A stretch of DNA of 64,000 nt. Source: Lentisphaera profundi. Its GTDB lineage: Bacteria; Verrucomicrobiota; Lentisphaeria; Lentisphaerales; Lentisphaeraceae. The first letter of the stretch is position 1. Every line of letters starts with the position of its first letter. The notes beneath the pieces are model-generated. The model was not told the DNA's origin, did not search any database, and saw only the letters and a list, made by a program, of their open reading frames with translations. Of this stretch, positions 42,061-54,667 are shown piece by piece. The stretch spans positions 1,612,001-1,676,000 of the forward strand of contig NZ_CP117811.1 in the NCBI RefSeq assembly GCF_028728065.1, given 5' to 3'. The position numbers and the translations under genes are program-made.

Positions 42061-43230
42061 ATGGAATCGTACAACTGTTTTTCATGCGGATTTAGCAATC
42101 CTATCGCTCACACCCACTGTGCCAAATGTAAAAAATCTGCTGCTGCAGCCGCTTTTATTTCTAATGGAACAGGATCCTTCCCAGAAGGTTTCATATGGCC
42201 TCTTTTCCCTAGAGCCCTCGTACTTGGCGCCGCTCCAGCAGACGATATCCTTATTCCTACAAATAAAATACATGACCAACATTGTCGCTTCGATTATGTA
42301 AAAGGCGTGTTTTATATCACTCTCCCAAAGAATAGTCCTACTGCATTTATTGGTGGCCAATCTATCCGTCCTAATATGAAGCAAGCTTTAAATAATGGCT
42401 CCACTCTAAAAATAGGTGACGAAGAACTCACTATCACCTATTTTAATGGAACTGAAACATTTTCAGAAGTACAAAATTTTCAATTAAAGCAATTAGCAGA
42501 AAAATCTGTCAATCCAACCGTTTGTCGTCTTCTTCATATTATTGCTTTCAAACGCGAAGTCATTAATTTGACCAATTCTACAGATATATATTCATTTGCG
42601 GTCGATACTATCCTGCGCATCACAGATCTTGATAGAGCCTACGCCTTTCAAGTTATTACTGAAGGGGATGAACTTAAAGTAAAAGAAGTCATCGCTAAAG
42701 ATTCCGACCTATCCATCATTGAAGAGGAAGAATTTAGCATATCACGCTCGATCATGACGCAGGTTTTAGAAAACCAAGGTGCTGTTTTTATTCAGGATGC
42801 TGACAAGGAAGTTACTTCCACTGTTTCTATGGCGAACTTCAATATCAAAACAGTCATCTGTCTCCCTTTAACCGTAAAGAATGAACAAGGTGAGCGAGAG
42901 CTTATCGGTATTATCTATGCGGACAAAACTTTAAGTACCACTCCCCTACCTTCTGGTATATCCGCTTCTCTGCAGTCTTTGCGTAAAATCACTTCACACC
43001 ACTTAGTGAGAACTATGCAAAATGACGAGGCAAACTCAGATTTAAATAGTTTCAAGCATTACTTTACTAACCTAAAGGATGAGATGGATAAGATTCGAAA
43101 TTACCTAGATGATACTTCTCAGCATATTGTTGTTGGTACAAGTACTGATACCAGTGTTTTCCAAGAACGCATAACAGAATGCAACGAAGCTTTAAAAATG
43201 CTTGCTGAGAATGTAAAACAGAACTTCTAA
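42061..43230 (+). CDS. Zinc-ribbon / FHA / GAF signalling protein
   Basis: This is a 389-residue cytoplasmic protein. I choose ATG 42061 over GTG 42022 because GGGAG lies 12 bases ahead and the zinc ribbon then starts at once (C6, C9, C20, C23). Residues about 45-140 resemble an FHA phosphothreonine-binding domain (ILIPTNKIHDQHCRFDYV, GSTLKIGDEELTI). Residues about 165-330 resemble a GAF sensor domain (TDLDRAYAFQVI, IKTVICLPLTV, ELIGIIYADK). The tail is helical. It probably reads kinase output in the cell. Its stop codon overlaps that of the convergent gene (TAA 43228-43230 against TAG 43227-43229). Confidence 0.75.
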   Translation: MESYNCFSCGFSNPIAHTHCAKCKKSAAAAAFISNGTGSFPEGFIWPLFPRALVLGAAPADDILIPTNKIHDQHCRFDYVKGVFYITLPKNSPTAFIGGQSIRPNMKQALNNGSTLKIGDEELTITYFNGTETFSEVQNFQLKQLAEKSVNPTVCRLLHIIAFKREVINLTNSTDIYSFAVDTILRITDLDRAYAFQVITEGDELKVKEVIAKDSDLSIIEEEEFSISRSIMTQVLENQGAVFIQDADKEVTSTVSMANFNIKTVICLPLTVKNEQGERELIGIIYADKTLSTTPLPSGISASLQSLRKITSHHLVRTMQNDEANSDLNSFKHYFTNLKDEMDKIRNYLDDTSQHIVVGTSTDTSVFQERITECNEALKMLAENVKQNF

Positions 43231-43685
43231 GGATTGAGATAAAAGAATAAAACTTTTGTCTTTGCTAAGATAATATATTTATCACTATAAAGATTTAGAT
43301 CTTCCAACTGCGCTAAAACTTCCTTTAAGGTCAGTTGCATATCTAATTCCAATTCTCTCGCACTAAACTCTTTTACACTACCTGTCAATGCTTCCACATA
43401 GTCTTTCGCCTCTTGAGAATTCAAGGCCCTTAGATATTGCAGTCGCTTCTCCAAGCTTTGTTTTTGTAGAAGCCAAAGTTCTTTGTTTAAGTTGTAATCA
43501 AAAATAAATTCCTCAGCATACTGCCCTTTTATTTTTGATGGTGGAAAGAAAAGCTTAGCATCATTTAGATTTTCTAATTCTATAAAATAAATCCCATGTG
43601 CTTTTGAAAAGACACCTTTTTTTATGTTCACTTGCGCGACACAGTGAAAAGTCAGTAGAAATAAAACTACATATAAATACCTCAT
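43227..43685 (-). CDS. Small secreted hypothetical protein, end of the FHA operon
   Basis: This is a 152-residue protein. The start ATG 43685 overlaps the upstream FHA gene stop as ATGA, so I prefer it to an earlier in-frame start at 43700. Residues 1-17 form a signal peptide (MRYLYVVLFLLTFHCVAQ). The remainder is mixed beta (FSKAHGIYFIELENL) and then helical (residues about 65-135), with LQYLRALNSQEAKDYV and LKEVLAQLEDL. I recognise no family. It is the last gene of a coupled four-gene unit starting at 48366. Confidence 0.65.
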   Translation of the reverse strand: MRYLYVVLFLLTFHCVAQVNIKKGVFSKAHGIYFIELENLNDAKLFFPPSKIKGQYAEEFIFDYNLNKELWLLQKQSLEKRLQYLRALNSQEAKDYVEALTGSVKEFSARELELDMQLTLKEVLAQLEDLNLYSDKYIILAKTKVLFFYLNP

Positions 43686-45484
43686 TGGATTAACTCGCAC
43701 TCACTTAAAACCAGCATATCCAAACCGCGAATCCCCATAGACCAACCTTTAATTTTTACATGCTTACCATGGAGACCTAGATCTTCACTTTCACCCTTAA
43801 AATAACATTCAACAAAACCATCGAGTCGTAGCGTATGCCAATTTTCATCTGTACTAATGGCACTTACCGTACCTGAGATTTCTATGTACGAATCAGCATA
43901 TTTATTAAAGAAGCTCAGTAGATCCATTTGCTTACGATCTTGTAAAACATCCTGAGTTTTCAGAACTTCTATTTCCTTATTTCCTTGTTCACCCCTATAA
44001 ACTTTAGGTATCCAAATATTTTCATTTAAAGGTAATATTTTCTTTGCAATAACTTTTATGCCTTTACTGATTCCGAAACTGGCTGCCTTTGATGAAGGAA
44101 CACAAGATTCAATATCTCTCAATAAAAAATCTTTCTTTTCATCCTCATTAATAAAAAAAATGATATTACTTTTATTTGTTTTTTTCAGCATTCCATAGAA
44201 CTCTTCTCCTGACTTAAGCTTCAAATAATGGCTTATCGTAAAAAATTTACTTTCTACAACTAAGTCTTGACCTTGACTCAAAGTAAGTTCATGATTTTCT
44301 ACAAGATCACTGCCCTTCACGCTGATGGATACAAAGTAACTAGATGGCAATAACTTATCTAATTTTATAAAATGGTTCGATGAATCAATAAACTTACCAT
44401 TCACATTCACTTCACACTCAAGTTCAGGTAAATTAACCCGTAGTGAGCAATACCTCGGATCAAAAATAAATTCCTCATCTAATTCATCCATCTTTAAACT
44501 AATTACCGAATACGATGGCAAACTTAAATTTAAGACTTTATCTACAAGTAATTCTTTTCTAATAAAAGAGGGACTGATACCAAAGACATCGTCCTTAAAT
44601 GACAATTTTGCACCTTCTGGTTTTGTCTGAAAATCAAGATAGGCATCATCTCTCTCAAGCTCAATTTTTATATTCTGAGTAGACGACAAGTTAATAAAGA
44701 TATCTTTTCTATGATATGCCTTTTTGTAACAAGTCACATTATAGAACCCTGGACTTAAGCCTTTTACCTCAAGCGGTACCTTGCCCTTATACTCACCATT
44801 TAATTCGATCCTTACACCAGGAATTTCACTCTCAAAATTAAGACTATACAGCTGTTTTTTAAGTTCTTTTGGTCCTATTTTATCCACAAATGCAACATTA
44901 CCCTTCAATTCTTCACTAGGATCTATAAGTATTAAAACTGGATCGATATCCTCTGCAGGTATAATAGCAAAGATAGCTACACAGAAAAAGATCAACGCTA
45001 GTATTATAAAAATGCTTTCTTTTCGTTTTTTTTCAGGATCATTATTCGCGGAATATTCCGTATCCATTAATTCATTCACATCATTTGGAGTAGACTCACC
45101 ATCGGTCAAGTCATTTGGAGTAGGCTCACCATCGACTAAGTCATCAGCAGGATTAGGATCTAAAACTTTAGGCTCCTCTAAACTCTTAGGCAGCTCTAGA
45201 GACTCCACTAAGCAAAAACTTTCTTTGCCAATACTTATCTTATCACCGATCTGAACTTTACTTGCTTGAAATATTTTTTGTCCATTTAAAAAAACTCCAT
45301 TATGACTCCCCAAATCCTCCAAGAAAATCACGTCATCATGCAGACTCAACTCCATATGACGCCCACTAATTTTAGCATCATTAATAACCAAGGTACAAGT
45401 ATGACTACGCCCTATGGTAATTGAATTTTGTTCAAAATTCAGCTTTTTACCAAGCAAAGAACCTGCAGTAAAAAGAATCCTCAT
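43682..45484 (-). CDS. FHA domain membrane protein with PEGA-like periplasmic part
   Basis: This is a 600-residue protein. Residues 1-95 form a clear FHA domain (SITIGRSHTC, KISGRHMEL, LEDLGSHNGVFLNG). An acidic linker with a 10-residue repeat follows, then one membrane span at about 158-180 (IFIILALIFFCVAIFAII). Outside the membrane are PEGA-like repeats (IPGVRIELNGEYKGKVPLEV, FQTKPEGAKLSF), further beta domains, and an OB-like end (YIEISGTVSAI to HVKIKGWSMG). Its start codon directly follows the stop of the DUF1549/DUF1553 gene. It may carry a phospho-signal across the membrane to that system. Confidence 0.8.
   Translation of the reverse strand: MRILFTAGSLLGKKLNFEQNSITIGRSHTCTLVINDAKISGRHMELSLHDDVIFLEDLGSHNGVFLNGQKIFQASKVQIGDKISIGKESFCLVESLELPKSLEEPKVLDPNPADDLVDGEPTPNDLTDGESTPNDVNELMDTEYSANNDPEKKRKESIFIILALIFFCVAIFAIIPAEDIDPVLILIDPSEELKGNVAFVDKIGPKELKKQLYSLNFESEIPGVRIELNGEYKGKVPLEVKGLSPGFYNVTCYKKAYHRKDIFINLSSTQNIKIELERDDAYLDFQTKPEGAKLSFKDDVFGISPSFIRKELLVDKVLNLSLPSYSVISLKMDELDEEFIFDPRYCSLRVNLPELECEVNVNGKFIDSSNHFIKLDKLLPSSYFVSISVKGSDLVENHELTLSQGQDLVVESKFFTISHYLKLKSGEEFYGMLKKTNKSNIIFFINEDEKKDFLLRDIESCVPSSKAASFGISKGIKVIAKKILPLNENIWIPKVYRGEQGNKEIEVLKTQDVLQDRKQMDLLSFFNKYADSYIEISGTVSAISTDENWHTLRLDGFVECYFKGESEDLGLHGKHVKIKGWSMGIRGLDMLVLSECELIQ
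45081..45140 (-). repeat. 30-bp in-frame tandem repeat in the FHA protein linker
   Basis: Bases 45081-45110 and 45111-45140 are near-identical copies that encode the linker decapeptides LTDGESTPND and LVDGEPTPND. The linker joins the FHA domain to the membrane span, so copy number would change its length. Confidence 0.75.
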
Positions 45485-47155
45485 CTAATACACTCGTATT
45501 TCTGGAGAGTTAAAAATTGCCCAAGTCATTTCAAAAAAACCAGACTCAGGGTAATTAACTTTGGCATCTACTTTATTTTTAAAAAACAGGCGCTCTCGCT
45601 CTGTTGGCAACCTGGTATAATACGTAATAAAGAATTCATTTATAAATAAATTAAAATCTTTTTTCTTCGCTTGCTCGTACCAAAAATTCGCCTTCCCATC
45701 TATAAAATCGAGTGCATCACTATTGCTAGCTAAAAATAAAGCTTGCGATAAACTCCCCCTATAAAAAGCTTCTGAATCTGACAAAGAACTTGGAAAGAGT
45801 TGATCAATATATTTCTCTTTATTTTTCTCTAAGCTATAAAGTGATTGCCAATTTTCATTTTTCGTAAACTTTTTGAATTCATCGTTCATTAAGATGTTTA
45901 GGATTTGCTCTCCTGATAAATGCCGTATTTTCCTACTGGTAAAATAGATAAAACCCTCTTCATCTGACTTCTCCGACGAGGGCAGTTTATAAATATCTGA
46001 TAATAAGAATCGGCGTACTAATACATACAAATCGAACTTATTATCCTCAAACTTTTTAGCAAATATATCAAGTCGTTTTGCATTCTCATGACTCGCACCA
46101 TAAACATCATTTGCGGGCATCACTATTCCACGCCCTATCAACCAATGCGACACCCAATTAGAAGTGGACCTTGAGAAATACTTAGGTTTTTTATATGCCA
46201 TCCACTCAGCTAAGTAATCTCTAGGACTCTTAGTTATATGCAGAGGACGATTTTGACCAAATAGTAAGCGTGGTCTTGCTGTATATTTCTTTTCTTCTAC
46301 TATGTATTCTAGTTTTAAATGCGTGAGTCTTCTCTCTTTTTCAAAGATATATAATTGCGGTGCTACGAGAGATTTTTCTTGACTCATCTCATCCATTTTA
46401 AACTCCATGGATAATTTTTGACCACGACTATCTTCATATGAAATTTCATCATATATATTTTCGCCCTTCTCCTCCATAGAAATCCAATCTAATACATCTT
46501 TATATTCATCTCCTAATGCCTGCTGTGCCTTATAGCTCTTCCCTACTCGTTTCTTAAGATCTTTTAGTTCTTTATCAGTTTTTACATAACGCTTATCCAT
46601 TCCTTCAAAAAAAGTGGCCATGGACCAAAAATTCTTATGAGTTAGTTCTGGATAATATTTATGATCGTGACATTCAGCACAAGCAAGGGTTATGCCCCAA
46701 ATATTTTCCGTAAAGCGCCCTGCCATCATTTTTGAATCTTCTTTACCCGTAAAGAAAAGCACCATCTGGTTTCTAGCTGAAATTCCATCCGCACTTAACA
46801 TATCGCGAATAAATTGGCGAAAGTCCAAATCAGGCTTCACATAAGTTTCTTTTATGTGCTTTTCCAAGCTTCGATAAACTAATGGGTGCTGCTCCCTCTC
46901 TTTTCTTTTGGGTGCGTAGTGATCTACAATTTTTGTCGCCAAATTACTTCTGAATTCATCTGTTTTTAAAAGCTTGTCGACTAAACGCTCATACTGCCCC
47001 TTTCCAATCATATCCTTGGCAGAGTAATACTCACCTAATTCAGGCAAACGATTCTGTGTATCCAAATATAAGCGTCTCACTAAACGATCTGAGCTTTCTA
47101 CTTCTGCTTTTAGACACAAAGTAGTTAACAGCACTAATGTGCAAAATAGCTTCAT
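45485..47155 (-). CDS. DUF1549/DUF1553 protein without PSCyt1 domain
   Basis: This is a 556-residue secreted protein. The start is ATG 47155, which overlaps the DUF1501 stop as ATGA and gives the signal peptide MKLFCTLVLLTTLCLKA; a longer frame to 47191 is rejected. DUF1549 covers residues about 20-200, with RLVRRLYLDTQNRLPELGEY and CxxCH at C159-C162-H163 (CAECHDHKYYPE). The DUF1553-like end starts near DYLAEWMAYKKPKYFSRS and includes SGEQILNIL. It is shorter than the relatives at 3849 and 51154. It is co-transcribed with DUF1501 and FHA genes. Confidence 0.87.
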   Translation of the reverse strand: MKLFCTLVLLTTLCLKAEVESSDRLVRRLYLDTQNRLPELGEYYSAKDMIGKGQYERLVDKLLKTDEFRSNLATKIVDHYAPKRKEREQHPLVYRSLEKHIKETYVKPDLDFRQFIRDMLSADGISARNQMVLFFTGKEDSKMMAGRFTENIWGITLACAECHDHKYYPELTHKNFWSMATFFEGMDKRYVKTDKELKDLKKRVGKSYKAQQALGDEYKDVLDWISMEEKGENIYDEISYEDSRGQKLSMEFKMDEMSQEKSLVAPQLYIFEKERRLTHLKLEYIVEEKKYTARPRLLFGQNRPLHITKSPRDYLAEWMAYKKPKYFSRSTSNWVSHWLIGRGIVMPANDVYGASHENAKRLDIFAKKFEDNKFDLYVLVRRFLLSDIYKLPSSEKSDEEGFIYFTSRKIRHLSGEQILNILMNDEFKKFTKNENWQSLYSLEKNKEKYIDQLFPSSLSDSEAFYRGSLSQALFLASNSDALDFIDGKANFWYEQAKKKDFNLFINEFFITYYTRLPTERERLFFKNKVDAKVNYPESGFFEMTWAIFNSPEIRVY

Positions 47156-48366
47156 GACAAAAGCTCTGCAATTCCTGATTTGGAGGGACATAGATCTAAA
47201 GGCCTTCCACTTTTATGCATATAGGGATCATTTGGGTTAAAACCAAGATACCTAAAAATTGAGTAACTTAATTCTCCCATACTAACAGCTCCTGCTAAAC
47301 TCATTCCATCCTTAGAACTACGGCCTATATGTTGACCCGATAAGCCTCCTCCTATTAATAAAACGGGCGTATTCATTGGATAGTGATCTCTGCCCCCATT
47401 TTCATTAATTCGCGGTGTACGACCAAAATCCCCCGCCACCATAATTAAAGTTGAGTCTAATAAGTCCATCACTTCTAATTCTTTGATCAATTGACACATA
47501 CCCTGATTCATGGGCTCACACAGATTTTGACATCTCTGAGTATTATTTTGGTGGGTATCCCAACCGCCATATGAAATCTCTACTGAAGGCACGCCTGCTT
47601 GTATTAAACGACGGGCCTGTAAAAAACTTTTACCTATTCCCTTCCCGTACATCTCCAAACTTTTAGGACTTTCATTATCTAAATCAAAAACTTTATTTGA
47701 AATGCCTAAATTTAACTGTGTAGCTTTGCGCCCATAGCGTAATTCTTCTTGTATCTGTTCAATTTGCTGACTTGCAGAATGCTTCATATACTCATCTCTC
47801 AAAGATTCAGATCTAAGTAAACGCTCTCTCCAGTCGGCATCCACCTTAAGCTTATTCTGTCCTGGCTTAATACTATAGGGACTATAATCATTATCTAAAA
47901 AACCCGCTGACAAGGCTCCTCCTAAAGAAACTACCTTTGGTAAATCAGATTCTTTATCGGCAGCTAAGGCCCAGGCGGCTGTCGAGCAAATACCTGGCTG
48001 AATTTGTGCGGGATTGGGCAAAAAACCTCCTGTCCCTACATAATACCTTCCTAATTCATGTGCCCCTACTCGAGAACTGGTATGCACCAAAGCCATATGT
48101 TGAGAAAAGTCTGCTAAACCCGCAAAATGATCCGCGAAATAAAGGTCTTTAATTTGTGTTTTAGCCCCTTTCAAGCCTCCACCATTGACATGATTCGGCT
48201 TGGCATCAAAAGTATCCATTTGCGAGGGGCCACCACGTAAATTAATATAAATAAAATGACGAACTTTAGGACGTTTCTTTATAGCTGCATTGCCCCTATT
48301 AGGAAATAACAAGCTAGATAGCGCTAAGCTACCACCTCGTAAGAAGTTTCGTCGATTTGTATACAT
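47152..48366 (-). CDS. DUF1501 protein with Tat signal
   Basis: This is a 404-residue DUF1501 protein. MYTNRRNFLRGGSLALSS is a twin-arginine signal. Family landmarks are FIYINLRGGPSQMDTFDAKP, VEISYGGWDTHQNN, MVAGDFGRTPRIN and GRDHYPMNTPVLL. Unlike the other two loci in the window, here the DUF1501 gene comes first and the DUF1549/DUF1553 gene follows with a four-base overlap. The unit continues into an FHA membrane protein. Confidence 0.9.
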   Translation of the reverse strand: MYTNRRNFLRGGSLALSSLLFPNRGNAAIKKRPKVRHFIYINLRGGPSQMDTFDAKPNHVNGGGLKGAKTQIKDLYFADHFAGLADFSQHMALVHTSSRVGAHELGRYYVGTGGFLPNPAQIQPGICSTAAWALAADKESDLPKVVSLGGALSAGFLDNDYSPYSIKPGQNKLKVDADWRERLLRSESLRDEYMKHSASQQIEQIQEELRYGRKATQLNLGISNKVFDLDNESPKSLEMYGKGIGKSFLQARRLIQAGVPSVEISYGGWDTHQNNTQRCQNLCEPMNQGMCQLIKELEVMDLLDSTLIMVAGDFGRTPRINENGGRDHYPMNTPVLLIGGGLSGQHIGRSSKDGMSLAGAVSMGELSYSIFRYLGFNPNDPYMHKSGRPLDLCPSKSGIAELLS

Positions 48367-51153: not shown

Positions 51154-53403
51154 ATGAAACTCATTCTAACTTTACTGCTTTTTACTACATATATACATTC
51201 TGCGCCTCATCCCGATGAAGCTGTGGCTAAAATAAATAGTTTGATTAGCTCTCAATTAGAAGGTAGCTTAAATAAAAAATCTAGTGATTCCACTTTTGTA
51301 CGAAGGATCTACCTCGACATAATTGGACGTATTCCTTCTATTGAAGAAAGTTCAGCTTTCATTGCAGATAAAAATACCAATAAGCGCTCATCCCTCATCA
51401 AGAATTTACTGATGTCAGAAGCTTACGTATCTAACAACTTCAACTTCTGGGCCGATATACTGCGCATCACCAAGGATGGCGGAGGCAATTTGACGGTCAT
51501 GACCGCCGCTTATAGTGAATGGATCAAAAAAGCCCTGCGTCAAAATATGCGCTATGACGATATGGTTTATCAATTATTATCAAGTGATGGCCCTGTATGG
51601 GAAAATGGTGCAGCCTCATACTATTTACGTGACTCAGGAATGCCCCTAGATAATACTGCCAATACCATTCGAGTTTTTCTCGGCACACGAATTGAATGTG
51701 CCCAATGCCATGATCACCCTTTTGATGACTGGACACAAATGGACTTTTATCAGACTGCCGCTTTCACATATGGCTATAAAGGTGGCGCTTTTCCAAATCA
51801 AAAATCATCAAATTTGACCAGCCTAAAAAAACATATCAGTCAAATGAATAAAAAGAAGTTCACACAAGCCACTGGCAATAAATTCATACGCTCCGTCACT
51901 AATGAACAACAGTTAGATAAATTCTTAAAAAACCCAAGAAGCGAGAAAGAAATAAAACGCAGTGGCCTCTCTAAAGAGCAATATATTAAACTCGCTCGCA
52001 AAGGTATGGAAGCCGTAAAAGACACGCGCATCATACAGAGCTCAAGTAAAGATACCATAGACTCCTTATTTGGAAAAATGCGTAATACTTCACTACAGTT
52101 TAATGAAAAAACCTTACAACTCCCCCACGATTATAAATATGATGATGCCAAACCCAAAGATGCGGTTCAACCCTCCTCTATGTTTGGCAATAAAATCACT
52201 ATCAAAGAAGGTGAAACCAGAAGAGAAGCTTTTGCTAAATGGTTAACTTCACCAGAAAATCCGACTTTCACCAGAGTCATTGCCAACCGTATGTGGGAAA
52301 AAGCTTTTGGCGTTGCGGTTTTTTCTCCCGTCGACGAAATAAATGATTTTACCAATATACGAAATAAAGAAATGGTCGATTATCTCGAAAAATTAATGCT
52401 TGATTTAGATTATAACCTCAAAGCTTTCCAGTATATCATCTACAATACCGATGCTTACCAAGCTCAGGTAAGTCCCGTTCAAATTAACACCAAAGACCCC
52501 TACGACTTCAAAGGCCCTGTTTTACGCCGAATGAGTGCTGAACAACTTTGGGATTCACTCGTGACTCTCTCAATTGAAAACCCAGACCTTTACAAATATA
52601 GCTCAAAAACTGATGAAGCTTTAGTGAAAAGTATCCGCAATAAGTTTGATCATATATCGAATATGGATACAGATCTTTTTGTTTCAAAAATCATGTCGAT
52701 TGCTGAGTATACAGCTAAGCAACAACCCGAAATAAACCGTCTAAGGAAGCTAGCTCTTCAAGCGCGTAAAGATCAAGATATCACCACCATGAAAAAGTAC
52801 AGTAAAGAACTTAAAGAAATCACCAACAGCATTTCCTTGAAAACTCAAAAAACCTTAAGCGTGACCAGTAGTGGGGCCATGGATATGAATATGATGCAGA
52901 GCATGAATTACAAAGCTAAAAAAGTCGCTAACCAAATACAAATCACCTCCGCTAAAACAGATCCCAACATGAGTAAATCTCAGCAAAAAGAAGAAAAAAA
53001 ACAGTTCTCCACATTTAAAAAAATGGTCAGTAATTTTTATCGTGCCTCTGAATTATCCTCCCCTTCACCTCGTGGACACTTCCTACGTGATTTTGGTCAA
53101 TCTGACCGCCTGAGTATTCAGAATGCCAACTCTTCTCCATCTATTACACAGGCTCTCAATTTAATGAATGGAAAAATGTTTAAAATCCTCAGCAACCCCC
53201 ACTCACTACTAGGCCAAAAATTACACGCTAGTAAAAGTTCCCCGGAAAGCTTCGAAATTATTTACCAAGCCTTCTATAGCCGTAAACCCACAAGTGATGA
53301 ATGGGCAGTTCTAGCTCAAGAAAGTAAAACTAGTAAGAGTAAAGCGACCAGTAATATTCTATGGGCACTCTTAAACTCTAAACAATTCACTTTCATTCAA
53401 TAA
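51154..53403 (+). CDS. DUF1549-DUF1553 protein
   Basis: This is a 749-residue secreted protein with signal peptide 1-16. DUF1549 covers about 20-230, with FVRRIYLDIIGRIPSIEESS and CxxCH at C182-C185-H186 (CAQCHDHPFDDW). DUF1553 covers about 345-740, with RREAFAKWLTSPENPTFTRV, ANRMWEKAFGV and QALNLMNG. Between the two lies a Lys-rich insert, and residues about 500-615 form a helical segment with Met-rich stretches (AMDMNMMQSM). It has no PSCyt1 domain. The next gene, a DUF1501 protein, starts 10 bases on after AAGGAG. Confidence 0.9.
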   Translation: MKLILTLLLFTTYIHSAPHPDEAVAKINSLISSQLEGSLNKKSSDSTFVRRIYLDIIGRIPSIEESSAFIADKNTNKRSSLIKNLLMSEAYVSNNFNFWADILRITKDGGGNLTVMTAAYSEWIKKALRQNMRYDDMVYQLLSSDGPVWENGAASYYLRDSGMPLDNTANTIRVFLGTRIECAQCHDHPFDDWTQMDFYQTAAFTYGYKGGAFPNQKSSNLTSLKKHISQMNKKKFTQATGNKFIRSVTNEQQLDKFLKNPRSEKEIKRSGLSKEQYIKLARKGMEAVKDTRIIQSSSKDTIDSLFGKMRNTSLQFNEKTLQLPHDYKYDDAKPKDAVQPSSMFGNKITIKEGETRREAFAKWLTSPENPTFTRVIANRMWEKAFGVAVFSPVDEINDFTNIRNKEMVDYLEKLMLDLDYNLKAFQYIIYNTDAYQAQVSPVQINTKDPYDFKGPVLRRMSAEQLWDSLVTLSIENPDLYKYSSKTDEALVKSIRNKFDHISNMDTDLFVSKIMSIAEYTAKQQPEINRLRKLALQARKDQDITTMKKYSKELKEITNSISLKTQKTLSVTSSGAMDMNMMQSMNYKAKKVANQIQITSAKTDPNMSKSQQKEEKKQFSTFKKMVSNFYRASELSSPSPRGHFLRDFGQSDRLSIQNANSSPSITQALNLMNGKMFKILSNPHSLLGQKLHASKSSPESFEIIYQAFYSRKPTSDEWAVLAQESKTSKSKATSNILWALLNSKQFTFIQ

Positions 53404-53413
53404 GGAGTCAAAT

Positions 53414-54667
53414 ATGAATAGACGTAAATTTATTAAAACTACTGGGGCAAGTATCCTAGGCTTTAACCTTTCTAACAACTCCTTCGCCTCTTCTCTCGAC
53501 TTTAAACAAACTCCTGGTGCGGCAAAACATCTCATTTATCTCTACATGGGTGGTGGCATGTCGCACATGGATACTTTTGACCATAAAGGTAATCACAAAA
53601 ACCAAGGCCCTGTAAAAGCCATTAAAACTCGCGCAAAAGGCGTGGAACTTTCTGAGTTCCTCCCTCTCCTCGCCGAACACACTGATAAACTTGCCATTGT
53701 AAATTCCATGACCTCAACTGCTGGTGCACACCAACAGGGCAATTATATGATGCATACTAGTTATGAAATGCGTTCAACTATTCAGCATCCGGGCATAGGT
53801 GCTTGGTTTCAAAAATTTCATGGTAAAGTAAACAAAAGCTTACCAGGCTCCATATTTGTTGGTGGCAATAGCCGGACTTTTGGGAATCGCGGCTTCTTTG
53901 AACCTGAGTATGCTCCACTTTCTATCAGCAACCCAAATGAAGGTTTAAAGAATTCCAAAAACCCCTACTTCCAAGATCAAGAATTTCACCGCTTAAGTCA
54001 GTTAAGCGATAAGCTTGATAGTAAGTTCCTCGAAAAATATAATCTCGACACCACGAAATCTGCTAGCTCAACTTACGTCGAAGCCAAAGAACTTATGAAT
54101 AGTCCCGATTTAAAGGCTTTTGATCTTTCTGACGTCAGCGATAACAAGATGGAACTTTATGGAAAAAATAATTTTGGCCAAGGGTGCCTTTTAGCAAAAA
54201 GATTAGTAGATAAAGGCGTTCGTACCGTAGAAGTTTCTCTCGGTGGCTGGGACACTCACAATAACAACTTTGAACGAGTCGCAGTACAAACTCAAAGTCT
54301 AGACCAAGCTATGAGTGCACTACTAAGCGACTTAGCTGAAAGTGGCCAACTAAAAGACACTTTAGTCGTATTAGCGACAGAGTTTGGTCGTACTCCTATC
54401 ATTAATGTTAATGATGGTCGAGATCACTACCCAAAAGCTTTTTCATGTGTCTTAGCTGGTGGACCTGTACGTGGTGGTCAAAAATACGGCATGACTACGC
54501 CTGATGGCACAAGTGTAGCGAAAGATCCTGTGAAGATTCCTGACTTCAATGCGACCATCGCAAAAGCTCTTGGCATGCCTTGGCAACAAAAAGTATTCAG
54601 CCCTTCTAAGCGCCCCTTCCAGGTCGCTCATCGCGGTAAACCCATTGATTCCCTACTCACTATATAA
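53414..54667 (+). CDS. DUF1501 protein with Tat signal
   Basis: This is a 417-residue DUF1501 protein. MNRRKFIKTTGASILGFNL is a twin-arginine signal. Landmarks are LIYLYMGGGMSHMDTFDHKG, VEVSLGGWDTHNNN, LATEFGRTPIIN and GRDHYPKAFSCVLAGG. Ribosome site AAGGAG lies just after the stop of the DUF1549-DUF1553 gene, so both are made from one transcript. It is convergent with the XylR-type regulator gene. Confidence 0.92.
   Translation: MNRRKFIKTTGASILGFNLSNNSFASSLDFKQTPGAAKHLIYLYMGGGMSHMDTFDHKGNHKNQGPVKAIKTRAKGVELSEFLPLLAEHTDKLAIVNSMTSTAGAHQQGNYMMHTSYEMRSTIQHPGIGAWFQKFHGKVNKSLPGSIFVGGNSRTFGNRGFFEPEYAPLSISNPNEGLKNSKNPYFQDQEFHRLSQLSDKLDSKFLEKYNLDTTKSASSTYVEAKELMNSPDLKAFDLSDVSDNKMELYGKNNFGQGCLLAKRLVDKGVRTVEVSLGGWDTHNNNFERVAVQTQSLDQAMSALLSDLAESGQLKDTLVVLATEFGRTPIINVNDGRDHYPKAFSCVLAGGPVRGGQKYGMTTPDGTSVAKDPVKIPDFNATIAKALGMPWQQKVFSPSKRPFQVAHRGKPIDSLLTI

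Follow-up and report, generated by a model that had tools for sequence, protein, structure and literature searches.

A PSCyt2-DUF1501 gene pair in an operon with an FHA-PEGA membrane protein in Lentisphaeraceae

Introduction

Pairs of PSCyt2 (DUF1549) and DUF1501 genes are present in dozens of copies in genomes of the PVC group, and their function is unknown (PMC5615132). PSCyt2 genes that adjoin a family of unknown kind have also been described, and the function of this arrangement was likewise called unknown (PMC5615132). Within the collection of papers searched, none names DUF1501 together with DUF1549, and none names an FHA domain together with a PEGA domain. The locus described here is located in a window of 64,000 nucleotides from Lentisphaera profundi (contig NZ_CP117811.1, positions 1,612,001 to 1,676,000). 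The pair that it contains is one of about 25 PSCyt2-DUF1501 pairs in a genome with approximately 26 DUF1501 matches, and in the present analysis it was the only conserved example of such a pair with a membrane-spanning partner that bears a signalling domain.

Organization of the operon

As judged from the DNA sequence, the minus-strand genes for the DUF1501, DUF1549/DUF1553, FHA-TM-PEGA and small secreted proteins (Table 1) form a real operon. The initial annotation gave the four open reading frames, their strand, coordinates and order correctly, along with the junctions that connect them. Reading the sequence places an ATGA overlap between the DUF1501 and DUF1549 genes at 47152-47155, a TAG followed directly by ATG (0 bp) between the DUF1549 and FHA genes at 45485/45484, and a second ATGA overlap between the FHA and small protein genes at 43682-43685. 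All three tight junctions are repeated in the two remaining species of this genus. The start of the DUF1549 gene is likely at 47155, inside the ATGA, as a good signal peptide begins there, and the ATG at 47191 given in the list of open reading frames is unlikely; the resulting protein is equally long in each of the three species of this genus.

The product of the fourth gene contains a signal peptide and matches no family. Comparison of this protein between genera with hhalign returned a probability of 3.9%, and its homology is demonstrable within the genus only. The convergent FHA-GAF gene that meets the end of the operon is syntenic within the genus.

Table 1. Features of the DUF1501-DUF1549-FHA-PEGA locus (window coordinates)
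Feature	Coordinates	Strand	Evidence or remark
Convergent zinc-ribbon/FHA/GAF protein	42061..43230	+	Pfam; conserved start MESYNC at 42061; end overlaps operon end by 4 bp
Small secreted protein, 152 aa, without family match	43227..43685	-	Signal peptide; genus-level conservation only
FHA-TM-PEGA-C-terminal beta protein, 600 aa	43682..45484	-	Pfam FHA E 3.4e-17, PEGA E 2.7e-07; homologues
C-terminal beta region, residues 416-600	43685..44239	-	Weak OB-like match over 504-592 (PF12869 E 0.022, below cut-off)
PEGA domain, residues 214-278	44651..44845	-	Pfam; best-scored part of otherwise poor AF2 model
Single transmembrane helix, residues 157-175	44960..45016	-	Hydropathy scan
FHA domain, residues 8-94	45203..45463	-	Pfam; conserved in homologues, replaced in L040
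DUF1549 (PSCyt2) + DUF1553 (PSD1) protein, 556 aa, Sec-type signal peptide	45485..47155	-	Pfam PF07583 E 5.7e-18, PF07587 E 7.9e-13
CxxCH (CAECH) haem c attachment motif, DUF1549 domain	46667..46681	-	C159, C162, H163 invariant
DUF1501 protein, 404 aa	47152..48366	-	Pfam PF07394 E 2.9e-59, 201.6 bits
Ser/Thr kinase, N-terminal Cys-rich zinc-ribbon-like segment	48616..49605	-	Pfam Pkinase E 2.8e-41; outside conserved unit beyond genus

The DUF1501 and DUF1549/DUF1553 proteins

The N-terminus of the DUF1501 protein contains a twin-arginine motif, NRRNFL, with its RR at 48349-48354. These arginines are invariant in an alignment of DUF1501 proteins, where the motifs WDxH, FGRTPxIN and GRDH are also conserved, and the protein is predicted to be exported by the Tat pathway. 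In a comparison with alkaline-phosphatase/sulfatase superfamily proteins of known structure, its best profile matches in the PDB are sulfatases, at weak E values of 0.13-0.94.

Both domains of its partner are recognized by Pfam in a single protein (DUF1549, 66.1 bits against a cut-off of 29.8; DUF1553, 48.8 against 28.5). The two Cys and the His of the CxxCH motif are unchanged across 10 members of the DUF1549 subfamily and 20 wider members, and the protein is predicted to be a Sec-exported c-type haem protein that would be loaded with haem. The structure model of this protein is good (pLDDT 75, pTM 0.77), and a Foldseek comparison of the model with the PDB gave no significant match. The C-terminal helical domain of the model is similar to the linker domains of phycobilisomes (Z 4.6, rmsd 2.9-3.3, 74 residues), which are also picked up weakly by the sequence profile (E 0.0074). 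DUF1549/DUF1553 proteins seem to carry helical modules like those of phycobilisome linkers or DUF4214 at both ends (residues 22-80 and 477-556), with the CxxCH motif between them.

The DUF1549 subfamily of the window is divergent, with 33-41% identity to members in other genera of the Lentisphaeraceae and 20-30% to relatives outside the family, and a search of 143 further genomes of the class gave no member at E <= 1e-60. A second pair, with the reverse gene order DUF1549>DUF1501, is located in the window at 51154-54667 on the plus strand, past the kinase gene and another that is lipoprotein-like. It is found at the same place in genome G004 (L037) and not in G005 (L036).

The FHA-TM-PEGA protein

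The FHA domain scores 63.1 bits against a cut-off of 20.7 and possesses the residues of the phosphothreonine pocket (G25-R26, S40, H43, N62-G63), which are conserved wherever the domain is present. The protein contains one clear transmembrane helix preceded by the basic segment KKRKE, indicating that the N-terminus is inside. Consequently, the FHA domain would face the cytoplasm and the PEGA and beta part the outside, which agrees with the topology proposed initially. Judged by the signal peptides and this helix, the DUF1549 protein shares its compartment with the PEGA part. The AF2 model, built from two sequences, is poor (pLDDT 41). Within the genus, the FHA-PEGA protein is about 49% identical between species, compared with 75-78% for DUF1501 and DUF1549; this faster divergence favours a partnership that is loose and not obligate.

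Conservation across Lentisphaeraceae

Six Lentisphaeraceae genomes from three genera were compared. The possibility that the gene order is unique to this genome, on which the initial annotation would have given up the link, does not hold, as the order DUF1501>DUF1549>FHA-PEGA is kept in two genera and in five of the six genomes. The four-gene order that had been put forward is conserved in its first three genes, homology of the fourth being demonstrable no further than the genus. All three species of the genus of the window (g1) keep the kinase, DUF1501, DUF1549, FHA-PEGA, small protein and convergent FHA-GAF genes, and the syntenic block of this genus covers much of window positions 36-50 kb.

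The second genus (G002, with loci L038 and L045, and G003, with L039) retains the three genes in the same order, with intergenic gaps of 16-20 bp and 58-87 bp. The remaining neighbours have no match in the window. Identity to the window proteins is about 46% for DUF1501, 39% for DUF1549 (38-46% for the pair) and 24-25% for FHA-PEGA. As the genes surrounding the operon in this genus are unrelated, the gene link goes beyond general synteny. If genes were placed at random, one or more of the 12 FHA matches of the genome would fall within 3.1 kb of one of its approximately 26 DUF1501 genes with P of about 0.37; adjacency in one genome is therefore unremarkable, and it is conservation across genera that makes it non-random. 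The second-genus operon continues with a 216 aa secreted protein and then an STN-like (secretin/TonB short N-terminal) protein (L038 6442-7676, L039 12531-13787), for which the match in L039 (E 4e-6) is just under the cut-off. Paralogous pairs in the second genus (L042-L044) have the reverse order, DUF1549>DUF1501, and lack an FHA-PEGA gene.

The third genus (G001, L040) has a different arrangement, wherein a PEGA protein follows DUF1549 and the first 35 residues of this protein form a zinc-ribbon-like CxxC...CxxCG segment. FHA (PF00498) is not found in this protein, and PF09723 matches it under the cut-off (E 0.016). The next gene encodes a secreted protein that resembles a formylglycine-generating (sulfatase-modifying) enzyme by eye, not by profile match. 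The gene that precedes DUF1549 has an end unlike that of DUF1501; the DUF1501 orthologue is instead on contig C48 among other genes, with 54% identity to the G002 copy and 46% to the window protein. Since DUF1549 and PEGA stay adjacent here even though FHA has been replaced and DUF1501 has moved, the link between DUF1549 and PEGA is the most durable one, and the FHA domain is exchangeable. This variant amounts to a natural domain-swap experiment.

FHA-PEGA proteins and DUF1549 genes outside the family

A profile of the six Lentisphaeraceae proteins identifies FHA-TM-PEGA proteins in four other families of Lentisphaeria (f3, f6, f12 and f15), and those of f3 align end to end with the Lentisphaeraceae proteins. 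Non-circular profiles, built from Lentisphaeraceae sequences only, recover the FHA domain (E 1e-9 to 1e-21) and the PEGA domain (1e-19 to 1e-32) in these families, as well as the C-terminal region, which is weaker and not present in all of them (1e-9 to 2e-3). No CxxCHDH protein was found near the FHA-TM-PEGA genes of other families, with flanks of only 1.5 kb available for f12 and f15. Furthermore, DUF1501 is absent from six of the seven f3 genomes checked, and the single copy of the seventh lies at a distance of 250 kb. The existence of homologues where DUF1501 is absent suggests that the periplasmic part has another ancestral role. At five f3 loci (L154, L156, L159, L160 and L161) a gene for a PHP-domain phosphoesterase adjoins the FHA-TM-PEGA gene, divergently in four and as an overlapping tandem in L156. 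FHA-less PEGA proteins, about 450 aa long, are common throughout the phylum, and several are lipoprotein-like.

The reverse comparison was made with a survey of 80 DUF1549 loci (1.02 Mb). In the 79 loci from outside the family (Planctomycetota, Verrucomicrobiota, Acidobacteriota and others), DUF1549 has no gene for an FHA or PEGA protein within reach; the 80th, Lentisphaeraceae L045, is the sole locus with one. The link is therefore specific to the Lentisphaeraceae lineage.

These distributions bear on whether the genes are coupled in function or share no more than a transcript. A general envelope protein, of a kind present across Lentisphaeria, may have landed behind one pair before two or three of the genera separated, and stayed there. 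Such co-transcription without functional coupling is consistent with the homologues of the same architecture that have no nearby DUF1549 in four families, with the f3 genomes that lack DUF1501, with the fast divergence of FHA-PEGA, and with the other DUF1501 genes of the window genome, which have no FHA neighbour within 3 kb. However, the gene link has outlasted the change of all other neighbours between genera, and DUF1549-PEGA adjacency has outlasted the loss of both FHA and DUF1501 linkage. Co-transcription of this kind is rather unlikely, though it is the strongest alternative to the role proposed below.

The neighbouring kinase

The kinase gene is located 249 bp upstream of the operon, and its product looks intact: the K, RD, DFG and P-E motifs are present, with HRD reading YRD. 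In the model of the initial annotation, the FHA domain would recognize phosphorylation by this kinase, which would govern how the DUF1549/DUF1501 machinery is assembled or exported, as could be suggested by the kinase, the intact FHA pocket and the operon junctions. The wider comparison does not sustain this model. The kinase is 90-91% identical within the genus and adjoins the operon only inside the genus-wide syntenic block; consequently, its position is not evidence for a link to the FHA protein. Its relative in G003 is on another contig (54%), and there is no clear orthologue in G001 or G002. The window genome contains 17 matches to the kinase at 1e-20, itself included, and a kinase is near DUF1549 in 2 of the 80 surveyed loci. 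A dedicated kinase-FHA module was rejected as a conserved unit.

FHA is also missing in the third genus, and FHA-PEGA homologues occur without the pair. Export does not need the FHA protein, as DUF1501 and DUF1549 carry Tat-type and Sec-type signals of their own, and FHA-controlled export was rejected as unnecessary. Kinase-FHA control of assembly or export is consequently very unlikely. What persists of the proposed connection between the FHA protein and the pair is the linkage of FHA/PEGA with DUF1549/DUF1501, conserved in two genera, and not a dedicated phospho-control; control of the pair by phosphorylation is treated here as hypothetical. The kinase, the FHA-GAF protein (42061-43230) and the third-genus PEGA protein (L040 9659-11524) have similar Cys-rich, zinc-ribbon-like N-terminal segments (CxxC...CxxC).

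Proposed role of the FHA-PEGA protein

The best reading, held tentatively but close to evenly balanced, is that the FHA-PEGA protein is an envelope adaptor of the class as a whole, whose cytoplasmic domain is exchangeable and which was recruited to one PSCyt2-DUF1501 pair, probably to anchor or sense it. From a three-gene operon with a lineage-specific fourth gene, DUF1549/DUF1553 and DUF1501 would be co-expressed with a single-pass inner-membrane protein. Its periplasmic PEGA/beta part may contact the DUF1549 protein or its substrate, anchoring or sensing it at the membrane. The cytoplasmic domain could then link the adaptor to a cytoplasmic partner. This partner would be a phosphothreonine protein where the domain is a phospho-binding FHA, and the domain is exchanged for a zinc-ribbon-like one in the third genus. 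The order kept in two genera amid changed neighbours, the DUF1549-PEGA adjacency retained in the third genus, the compartment shared by PEGA and DUF1549, the conserved FHA pocket and the 79 outside loci without FHA/PEGA suggest such an adaptor, while the faster divergence of FHA-PEGA is unlike that of an obligate complex partner and, with the homologues in genomes lacking DUF1501 and the sample of six family genomes, speaks against it.

The protein could alternatively be an outside-in sensor, in which the PEGA/beta part would sense either a polysaccharide or the condition of the pair, and the FHA domain or zinc ribbon would relay this to regulators in the cytoplasm, such as kinases or the nearby FHA-GAF protein. 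The architecture of the protein, the abundance of kinases and FHA proteins in these genomes, and the convergence of the FHA-GAF gene on the operon in the whole genus are consistent with this relay. FHA-GAF adjacency is, however, also genus synteny. This alternative is improbable.

For the envelope adaptor, a more specific proposal is that interchangeable input domains (FHA or zinc ribbon) connect Ser/Thr phospho-signalling in the cytoplasm with a secreted haem protein of the PSCyt2 type and with DUF1501, its partner exported by Tat; this is unlikely on present indications. If true, it would provide a first handle on the positioning or control of the abundant PSCyt2-DUF1501 pairs. If the gene link is functional, the FHA-PEGA protein could serve as a bait for where and when a pair works; if it is not, the locus warns that co-transcription should not be taken for control.

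Comparison with known systems

The FHA-PEGA protein was compared with membrane components of secretion systems. It shares an FHA-like cytoplasmic domain with YscD of type III and TagH of type VI secretion systems, and the YscD cytoplasmic profile PF16697 scores 64.8 bits against a cut-off of 33.2, overlapping the FHA match. In contrast to YscD, its non-cytoplasmic part is PEGA and not the YscD ring region; membership was rejected as Pfam finds PEGA and no YscD or BON-type domain in the periplasmic part. Membership of the TagH family of type VI secretion systems was also rejected (NCBIfam TIGR03354, 44.4 bits against a cut-off of 120.25).

The FHA-TM-PEGA proteins of other Lentisphaeria (L154:8022-9983, L156:7679-9640, L161:7586-9667) have FHA, TM, PEGA and C-terminal region in the same order and a similar length, but lack a DUF1549/DUF1501 neighbour. 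The pair itself resembles the PSCyt2/PSD1-DUF1501 pairs of Planctomycetes and Verrucomicrobia in that it passes the family cut-offs, has CxxCH in DUF1549 and an adjacent DUF1501, and occurs in a genome with many copies. It differs from them in belonging to a divergent subfamily, in placing DUF1501 before DUF1549, and in having a gene for an FHA-PEGA membrane protein next in line. The window locus is a lineage-specific extension of the known arrangement of PSCyt2 plus a neighbour.
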